Assembly (NCBI RefSeq): GCF_030539665.1
Contig: NZ_JAUNXR010000002.1
Span: 1-64,000 of the forward strand
Direction: 5' to 3'
Source: Methanobrevibacter sp.
Lineage (GTDB): Archaea; Methanobacteriota; Methanobacteria; Methanobacteriales; Methanobacteriaceae
DNA length: 64,000 nucleotides
Part shown: in pieces, positions 28,570 through 30,995 of the stretch
Numbering within the stretch: position 1 is the stretch's first letter
Layout: the number at the start of each line of letters is the position of its first letter
Translations under genes and position numbers: made by a program
The notes under the pieces: model-generated
The model's input: only the letters and a program-made list of their open reading frames with translations
Databases searched by the model: none
What the model was told of the DNA's origin: nothing

Positions 28570-29865
28570 ATGAGTTTAATATATTCAAAATTAACTGCAG
28601 TGTTAAATAAAATCACTTACGAATTTCGCAGGTCTTTTATTTTTACCACTATTTTTTCTATTTTAACTTTCATTGAAAAACAATGGGTAAATAGCTATTT
28701 TAAAAGTTTTTATCCATCCGAAAACTTTTTGGATTTTTTAAATAAAAATAAAATAATTAGAAATTATCTTTTCTCCCCATTAATCATTCTTTTTGTTTTT
28801 GCAATATTTCTGATTTTATCTTTAAACAGGCTTACGGATAGCCTAATCATGACTTTAATAATAGCTTTCGTATTCTTTTTTGTGGGAGCTGTTGTTTTAC
28901 CTCGTTTTTTTATTAGGAACTCTTCTAAAAAACCGGCATTGTCATTTAATGCAAAAGACATGTACAGCATTGGTTTTTGTTTAATCATATTGTCAATAGT
29001 GTTTTTCTTCATAAGCATTGCATCTGTTGGTGGAATTCCACTTTTAAAACCTTCAATCAGATATCTATTAAAACCTGCATTTACCATGCCCGTATTTTTA
29101 ATCATTCCTGGAATTTGCATTGTAGGAAGCGTTTATCTCCAATATTATAAAGAAAATAAGATTAGCAGATCCCAGATAAGATTTAGATTGTTGGTATTGA
29201 TTCTTATTAGCGGTGCATTGTTATTGGGTTTGGGTTATAGAACCCCTTTGCTTGCCGCTCTCCTCATCATGATAATAATGGGATATTATGGAAAGGTTTT
29301 GTCACCTTGGGAAGTTGTAATCGGAGCATTGATTGGTGTAGGAGCAATTATTGGAATCGGCTATTTCAGGTCAGTTAGTGAATATACTATAACTGCCACA
29401 AGCCCATTCTATGCATTGCAATCCAGAGCCGATTTTACATTGCATGTTCTTGATTTGCTGAATTACATTAGTGGGGACTTTGGATTGACAAAAGGATCAT
29501 TGTTAGCAAGCTCAATTCCCGGAAGTGAATTAGGACCTCGTATGATGATTGGAAAGTTAATTTCATGGAGAACAGAGGTTACTGTAACACCGACATTGAT
29601 TGGGCAGATGGTGGTTGACTTTGGACGTGTTGGAGTTGCTGTTGAAATGTGCATTCTCGGATTTATCTTGGGAATCGGATTTAAGATAATGAGAATGACC
29701 GACAATTATTTTTACATTGGCCTATACAGCCTGCTGTTAACATATTCAATACTTGGAGTGGAAACTGGAATTCTAGATATACAAGTATTGGGATATTTTG
29801 CAATAGCTATCCTAGTATATGCAATATATATTGTAAAAAATATTAAAAATGAGGAAAAAATATAG
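28570..29865 (+). CDS. Oligosaccharide repeat unit polymerase (Wzy-like) membrane protein
   Basis: A 431-residue membrane protein with roughly ten helices. The central loop region (GLGYRTPLLAALL, YFRSVSEYTI, and a large loop with LRSR-like residues followed by GSLLASSIPGSELGPRMMIGK) is that of the archaeal/bacterial oligosaccharide repeat polymerase family, which joins lipid-linked sugar repeats outside the membrane. Likely involved in surface polysaccharide. It starts 12 nt after the preceding membrane protein gene. Polymerases of this kind are variable, so the family call rests on topology and the PGS...G motif. Confidence 0.7.
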   Translation: MSLIYSKLTAVLNKITYEFRRSFIFTTIFSILTFIEKQWVNSYFKSFYPSENFLDFLNKNKIIRNYLFSPLIILFVFAIFLILSLNRLTDSLIMTLIIAFVFFFVGAVVLPRFFIRNSSKKPALSFNAKDMYSIGFCLIILSIVFFFISIASVGGIPLLKPSIRYLLKPAFTMPVFLIIPGICIVGSVYLQYYKENKISRSQIRFRLLVLILISGALLLGLGYRTPLLAALLIMIIMGYYGKVLSPWEVVIGALIGVGAIIGIGYFRSVSEYTITATSPFYALQSRADFTLHVLDLLNYISGDFGLTKGSLLASSIPGSELGPRMMIGKLISWRTEVTVTPTLIGQMVVDFGRVGVAVEMCILGFILGIGFKIMRMTDNYFYIGLYSLLLTYSILGVETGILDIQVLGYFAIAILVYAIYIVKNIKNEEKI

Positions 29866-29892
29866 GTTAAAAAAAACCTATACCCGTGTTTC

Positions 29893-29917
29893 AATATTAA
29901 ACCGAACGTTTAATATT
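29893..29917. repeat. Perfect inverted repeat downstream of the polymerase gene
   Basis: AATATTAAAC (29893-29902) and GTTTAATATT (29908-29917) are perfect arms around CGAAC. It may form the end of the polymerase transcript or be a protein-binding site in the intergenic region that also holds two DtxR-like palindromes. Confidence 0.55.
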
Positions 29918-30022
29918 CCTAATTTTTGGAGATTAACTCTAATTTATTAAACCAGAATTGTAGAAACTAATTTAATAATTGAGATTTCATATTTGACTAA
30001 TAATATAAAGAGGAGATAAATT

Positions 30023-30038
30023 TTTAGGCTTGCCTAAA
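30023..30038. promoter_or_regulatory. DtxR/IdeR-like metal-repressor palindrome 1
   Basis: TTTAGGCTTGCCTAAA has the TTAGG-N4/6-CCTAA pattern of DtxR-family iron- or manganese-dependent repressor sites. It lies between two convergent genes, not before any recognised gene. The match to the family consensus is from knowledge; binding is inferred. Confidence 0.55.
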
Positions 30039-30081
30039 TTTCATCACCAATTATACTATTAATCTTTATCATATATAAAGG

Positions 30082-30097
30082 TTTAGGTATGCCTAAA
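30082..30097. promoter_or_regulatory. DtxR/IdeR-like metal-repressor palindrome 2
   Basis: TTTAGGTATGCCTAAA, same arms as site 1, centre 59 bp away. A TATA-like CATATATAAAGG (30070-30081) abuts it, and on the minus strand CCTTTATATATG forms a box A pointing toward site 1. The site overlaps the last codons and stop of the methyltransferase-like gene. Confidence 0.55.
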
Positions 30098-30995
30098 TTT
30101 CTAAGATATTTTCAGACACAGTTTCCAACTTATCTTTAATATCAGAAACGTCAACATTAGGAAACGCATCAATAATAGCCAAATCTACATGGGGAACAGA
30201 TAAAGTTTCAATAGGTTCATTATAAATTTCATAACTATCTTCAGATATATTATTCAGTTTTAAATTAGTTTTAAGATTGATTATTGCTTGAGGATTGATA
30301 TCATTGAATATTACTTTTTTAAATCCATATTTTAATAAAAATATGCCAATCGCTCCAGATCCGCACATCCCATCTATTGCCAGATCAGTACCAATACCAG
30401 TATTTTCCAGATAGTTATAAAGCTTCAAAAGTTTACTTTCGGTTGTAGATGCAACTTCAATATGGGAATTTCTTTGATCCTTGCTGATAACAATTTTTTC
30501 AGGAATCAAAGTTCTTAAAACGTCAATCCTGTCACTTTTTCCTGCAAGCAATTTAAATTCAACCAAATCAGCATCCTTACTCAAAATTCCTATGGTTTCA
30601 GAACCGCTTCCCTTTAAGACTCCCTTTACTTCAGGAATTTCTTCAAATAATCGCTTTGCTACTGATTGGTTAAAATCAGGATGAATCAAAATCAATGCAT
30701 CCTCATTAATAAATTGAGGATTTAAAGAGCTATAACAAAATGCAGGCATTGGAATTGGAGAATTTCTGCGGAGAGTTGCTTTTTCAGAAACAATATTCTC
30801 CTCAATCATGATCTTTAATATATTGGCCATTACAACATCCAACGGACGTTTACCGCAAACGCATTTTAAAAAATCACCATTCAAATTATCATAATCCTCA
30901 TAATCAACAATTGGAGTGAATTTTTTAATTTGAATGTCCTGACAATTCTCACATTGATTTAAATTATCAATACTTTCCTGGACTTTATCTTTCAT
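30093..30995 (-). CDS. SAM-dependent methyltransferase-like protein with N-terminal cysteines
   Basis: A 300-residue protein. The C-terminal half holds a class I methyltransferase fold: LAIDGMCGSGAIGIFLLKYG is motif I and VIFNDINPQAI motif II, with LAIIDAFP at the motif IV position. The N-terminal half has CENC and KCVCGK, possibly a metal site. Substrate unknown; the IDAFP motif does not match the NPPY of N6 methylases. It may start leaderless, as no ribosome site is seen. It stands alone, divergent from the CpaF gene. Its nearness to the hcg cluster made me consider HcgG, but the DUF2193 gene fits better. Confidence 0.65.
   Translation of the reverse strand: MKDKVQESIDNLNQCENCQDIQIKKFTPIVDYEDYDNLNGDFLKCVCGKRPLDVVMANILKIMIEENIVSEKATLRRNSPIPMPAFCYSSLNPQFINEDALILIHPDFNQSVAKRLFEEIPEVKGVLKGSGSETIGILSKDADLVEFKLLAGKSDRIDVLRTLIPEKIVISKDQRNSHIEVASTTESKLLKLYNYLENTGIGTDLAIDGMCGSGAIGIFLLKYGFKKVIFNDINPQAIINLKTNLKLNNISEDSYEIYNEPIETLSVPHVDLAIIDAFPNVDVSDIKDKLETVSENILEI

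Follow-up and report, generated by a model that had tools for sequence, protein, structure and literature searches.

A candidate metal-repressor-controlled small RNA gene, member of a structured RNA family in Methanobrevibacter

Two palindromic operators in the gap between convergent genes of Methanobrevibacter frame a promoter that very probably belongs to a small non-coding RNA gene under the control of a metal repressor. The locus lies in a 64-kb stretch of DNA, referred to here as the window, and is best explained as a whole, with good though incomplete confidence, by a metal-repressed (probably iron-repressed) small RNA that would act like IsrR, FsrA or RyhB. The functional part of this reading, an iron-sparing action through base-pairing, stands at about even chances. 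The original prediction described the operators as an orphan pair and offered three readings of them: a metal-controlled small RNA transcribed from the minus strand and starting near 30050, a relic promoter of a lost transporter, and an antisense promoter. The first is strongly supported by a genus-wide family of structured RNAs that lie behind the same operator pair. The term ‘orphan’ does not apply, because the small-RNA reading is supported and the relic and antisense readings are not: the operators frame the promoter of a recurrent small-RNA gene.

The operator TTTAGG-N4-CCTAAA occurs exactly twice in the window, at the predicted positions around a TATA-like element and 59 bp apart from start to start (Table 1), against 0.008-0.010 exact matches expected per 64 kb under Markov models of order 1-3. 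With up to two mismatches there are 10 matches against 4.8 expected, and the two at the locus are the only exact ones. On the minus strand the order of elements is upstream operator (op1), TATA box TTTATATA, ∼41 nt, and downstream operator (op2), the layout found at feoB in the same genome. The sequence of op2 also forms a hairpin in the RNA. From this promoter a candidate standalone RNA of ∼190 nt would run from ∼30047 to ∼29855. Both flanking genes point inwards, as originally described, with no credible open reading frame (ORF) between them that could be regulated; op1 overlaps the stop codon of the methyltransferase-like gene and the terminator-like hairpin that of the polymerase-like gene. 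The former was considered as Trm1 and rejected, its profiles supporting only a class I methyltransferase.

Table 1. Features of the small-RNA locus and its neighbours (window coordinates)
Feature	Position	Strand	Basis
Oligosaccharide-polymerase-like gene (PF01901, TIGR04370)	28570-29865	+	profile matches
Terminator-like hairpin TATAGGTTTTTTTTAACCTATA then TTTTTT	29855..29882	-	sequence; same hairpin in G025 and G009
Small-RNA body, model R1 match	29870..30010	-	47.3 bits; E=2.3e-5 in window
Hairpin AATATTAAAC-GTTCG-GTTTAATATT	29893..29917	-	predicted fold and relatives
Predicted largely unpaired C-rich TTAATCTCCAAAAA	29923..29936	-	sequence and predicted fold
Hairpin H2, TTATTAAATTAG-loop-CTGGTTTAATAA	29944..29978	-	helix 1 of R1, covaries in family
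AATCTC, counterpart of the family's conserved CAATCTCCAAAA	29981..29986	-	covariance-model alignment
op2, downstream operator TTTAGG-N4-CCTAAA	30023..30038	no strand	exact match; ∼10 nt inside transcript
Inferred RNA 5' end GGTGATGAA	30040..30048	-	TATA spacing, ∼31 nt from TATA start
TATA box TTTATATA, small-RNA promoter	30072..30079	-	sequence; present in three-genome alignment
op1, upstream operator TTTAGG-N4-CCTAAA	30082..30097	no strand	exact match; 2 bp from TATA box
Methyltransferase-like gene	30093-30995	-	profile matches

The same operator recurs in front of known metal genes. In the 1.62-Mb genome there are 10 exact copies, against 0.20-0.25 expected (Markov order 1-3), and a scan for the motif before feo genes, as the original prediction had proposed, found exact sites preceding both feoA and feoB. 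At feoB an exact pair, 52 bp apart, surrounds a TATA box, with one further exact site upstream; the pair at feoA is 22 bp apart, and the start of a heavy-metal P-type ATPase operon carries two exact operators, 21 bp apart (G000 C7:9713-9749; L018:6714-6750). Known metal genes thus do match the motif. With up to one mismatch the genome holds 19 sites, no more than the 23 of a reversed control pattern, so that only exact or paired sites carry weight; sites with one mismatch that precede copA, the dtxR-like gene and the second feoB are only suggestive, because the control pattern is equally frequent. Three further arrangements were observed: the operators of the ATPase operon also adjoin a divergent gene (9852+), an exact operator lies between divergent lysA-like and NUDIX-like genes (G000 C2:228202-228217; L017:6203), and the region G000 C1:140963-145650 holds two adjacent FeoB genes and a separate FeoA gene, several with operator sites of their own.

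A search with PF02742 found a single DtxR-family repressor gene in the genome, at L025:2941-3642, carrying both PF01325 and PF02742; the protein scores slightly better with MntR than with DtxR models, below the cut-off of both. The predicted controlling metal is most likely Fe(II), and could be Mn or another metal.

Evidence for an RNA product comes from the genus. A set of 21 RNA bodies, taken from other genomes and starting downstream of op2, was used to build a covariance model (R1), so that both the operators and the window were excluded. The model matches 63 of the 67 genomes of the genus, including all 37 of good quality, and a search of the family (139 genomes in 17 genera), run with strict filters, gave zero matches in any of the remaining 16 genera. 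The copy number of the RNA gene ranges from one to five per genome. Among 92 held-out hits, an operator pair lies upstream of 72 and a single site upstream of 16, leaving four with none (one of them at a contig end); the corresponding count of pairs in control stretches is 0/6,509. Exact pairs alone number 12, in 10 of the 67 genomes (reversed control, 0), and many others came to light when the interval was used as a DNA query and neighbourhoods were inspected; these pairs, with their sites ∼70 bp apart, lie in intergenic gaps and are in some cases arranged in tandem.

The promoters of the family are built to a common plan. The operators upstream of held-out hits are spaced by 67-73 bp, 82 of 83 operator-pair promoters contain a TATA box, the gap from op1 to the TATA box is 12-13 bp in most, and the distance from TATA start to op2 start is 40-43 bp, which places op2 ∼11 nt inside the transcript. 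A GTGATG-like sequence recurs at the inferred 5'-end position. Behind most operator pairs comes similar sequence, with the conserved CAAUCUCCAAAA segment, the hairpins UAUUAAAUUAG-UUUUCCACAAUUUU-CUAAUUUAAUA, GGAAAAUU-AUCUGCCA-AAUUUUCC and UUGGUGUUUAA-CUCUCCUC-UUAAACACCAA, and a U-tract. The structure comprises three to four stem-loops with conserved C-rich unpaired segments. In the family helices 99% of cells are paired, and there are 97 both-side changes compared with 28.4 in shuffles, in an alignment fitted to the model and therefore favouring structure; an earlier count on a MAFFT alignment also contained both-side changes. Pairing falls to 33-46% when the helix partner is slid. The third hairpin is likewise enriched (at least 7 bp in 84%, against 24% of shuffled flanks), the fold of a canonical member has z=-6.8, and the C-rich motifs have an unpaired value of 0.90-0.98, compared with 0.51 overall.

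Judged from its sequence, the copy in the window ranks as one of the most diverged in this family. In the whole genome R1 matches this interval alone (E=5.8e-4); the score of 47 bits is at the weak end, against 68-147 for most listed hits, the operator spacing of 59 bp is shorter than the usual 67-73 bp, and the copy folds with z=-3.0. The weak score and the shorter spacing count against the small-RNA reading. Neither the window interval nor four canonical loci match Rfam 15.

In the mechanism that we infer, which covers repressor binding, the identity of the metal, transcription, action in trans and targets, plentiful metal (most likely Fe(II)) would lead the single DtxR-family repressor to bind op1 and op2 and shut the promoter, as it would at feoA and feoB. 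When metal is short, the RNA would be made from ∼30047 to the T-rich hairpin at ∼29855 and, by analogy with known systems, would pair with ribosome-binding regions of mRNAs in an iron-sparing response whose targets would be iron-rich proteins. Pairing of this kind is the most likely mode of action because the family has three to four stem-loops with conserved C-rich unpaired segments; in the window copy, TTAATCTCCAAAAA is complementary to a Shine-Dalgarno-like sequence.

An alternative, rated unlikely, is that the metal-controlled RNA titrates a protein in the manner of CsrB, or acts as a sponge, instead of pairing with mRNAs. The several hairpins with repeated CUCUCC-type loops would suit such a role, as would the outcome of the exact-seed search, in which TTTTGGAGATTGT, the reverse complement of the conserved segment, gave no convincing target in mRNA start regions of the 67 genomes. 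Apart from the small-RNA genes, most of its matches fall within conserved coding sequence or on the opposite strand of such sequence; none sits at a convincing ribosome-binding site, and the excess over the reversed pattern is therefore no evidence of targets. A duplex scan against the start regions of 70 window genes returned AU-rich pairings and nothing convincing (top -28.9, 1% control -24.5). Both outcomes count against the proposed pairing with mRNAs. Speaking weakly against titration, the loops differ by subgroup (CUCUCCUC or CGUCGG), which is more usual for pairing RNAs, and no candidate protein to be titrated is known.

The aligned interval in relatives bears on whether the promoter makes anything at all. 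In the two nearest relatives (G025 and G009), in which the flanking protein shares only 74-76% identity, the operators, TATA box, downstream hairpins and terminator are retained. Of the operators, op2 is conserved in both and op1 in G025, with one arm changed in G009; a C-G pair of the window hairpin that encloses GTTCG is T-A in G009. Helix H2 is missing from G009, where R1 detects no match, and G025 reaches only 21 bits. The loss of H2 together with the weak window score suggests that this lineage may be drifting. Such divergence, and the lack of a downstream ORF, would fit operators and a TATA box left behind by a lost metal transporter and now without product, a reading that is nevertheless very unlikely: promoter, operators and RNA are conserved jointly despite the divergence of the flanking protein, the RNA body belongs by its R1 match to a family whose helices covary across the genus, and neither of the two relatives contains the remnant of a transporter.

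The position of the gene between two stop codons, one overlapped by op1 and the other by the terminator, could instead point to an antisense or interference device that acts on the methyltransferase-like or polymerase-like neighbour and not in trans. Most family members do abut a convergent gene (67 of 95 R1 hits, at a median distance of 23 nt), an arrangement that also means that the family RNA is not a leader. The neighbour itself, though, varies from member to member (FeoB, a DUF4012 gene, a T2SSE partner and others; 18 hits have feoB in divergent orientation at no more than 900 nt), and the RNA reaches the 3' end of the convergent gene and goes no further. A dedicated antisense promoter, as the original prediction had entertained, is thereby made highly improbable.

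In favour of an RNA that leads or encodes a tiny peptide under metal regulation, GGTGATG at the locus opens a frame, originally given as seven codons and in fact six and a stop (M-K-F-R-Q-A-stop), and in a sister element, type B, a Cys-rich peptide of ∼37 aa follows. The family has no conserved ORF: the three frames are evenly represented among the body lengths, half of the members are without an ATG-started ORF of 5 aa, and in many the ATG is absent or directly followed by a stop. A peptide product is accordingly given very little credence, and the short ORF (MKFRQA) was rejected as the product, neither its ATG nor its frame being conserved across the family. A mobile or repeat (MITE-like) element carrying a promoter is hardly credible: the one to five copies per genome include tandem arrays by feoB with a period of ∼300-330 bp (four units at L097:3980-5017 in G002, three at L098:3786-4488 in G007), but compensatory helix changes, conserved unpaired motifs and a conserved promoter-to-RNA spacing are not those of such an element, and terminal repeats were not noticed.

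Metal-repressor-controlled iron-sparing sRNAs are well known in bacteria; we know of no archaeal member of the FsrA/RyhB/PrrF type. A search of the open-access literature found none in archaea, where an earlier report may have been missed. FsrA (Bacillus) and RyhB/PrrF (Gram-negatives) resemble the RNA proposed here as trans-acting iron-sparing sRNAs under a metal repressor, and differ in being controlled by Fur and in using Hfq or Fbp as helpers. The Methanobrevibacter RNA has its operators in common with feoA and feoB and may, like RyhB, PrrF, FsrA and IsrR, be controlled by an iron-responsive repressor; as homologues they find no backing, since there is no match to a described RNA family (Rfam 15). 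In FsrA, a C-rich motif acts on Shine-Dalgarno sequences (PMC9410917). IsrR of staphylococci is a bacterial RNA with Fur and a bacterial promoter, whereas a DtxR-family protein is predicted here; it is a single gene, compared with one to five copies, no relation was found through Rfam, and its function has been shown experimentally, while the Methanobrevibacter RNA is known from sequence analysis (PMC9410917). Within the methanogens, a parallel by description is sRNA154 of Methanosarcina mazei, an intergenic sRNA with two stem-loops, induced by nutrient starvation, in which a loop masks a ribosome-binding site (reviewed in PMC5867862); starvation induction is proposed here, and sRNA154 differs in its nitrogen control and belongs to a different order. 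The regulatory side resembles DtxR/MntR systems in that one regulator gene carries both DtxR-family domains and a palindromic operator precedes feoA and feoB, and departs from them in the non-coding RNA gene as a predicted target. To our knowledge, the known targets of DtxR/MntR repressors are protein genes.

A second operator-controlled RNA, type B, was observed alongside the family described above (type A). It has a conserved 3' hairpin, CATATAACTACTCTC..GAAATTAAATATG..CATATTTAATTTC, and is found at G000 C1:140457-140860 (L016:7458-7860), L097:4933, L098:4404, L105:10207, L136:1832 and other loci. Mostly it is followed by the Cys-rich peptide, which ends in FFFGCNCH or FFFGCCK and has no Pfam or NCBIfam match; type B with the peptide occurs in 36 of the 139 family genomes, in this genus only. 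All 28 scored type-B loci have at least one operator upstream, and 20 have a pair. Seven type-A RNAs (L152, L157, L159, L145, L148, L107 and L173) carry the type-B 3' hairpin just past their U-tract, which suggests modular assembly. That Methanobrevibacter has a multicopy DtxR-controlled iron-sparing sRNA, apparently the first in Archaea, coupled to type B and its Cys-rich peptide, is a tentative proposal that we consider somewhat doubtful; if true, an RNA and a micropeptide would be turned on together, as one module, when metal is short.

The RNA would be among the rare small RNAs of archaea for which the sequence allows the controlling regulator to be named, and the family, conserved, multicopy and with an unmistakable promoter, makes the proposal directly testable. 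Iron-sulfur enzymes abound in methanogens, and a starvation RNA that reduced their synthesis would therefore tie iron supply in the gut to methane production.
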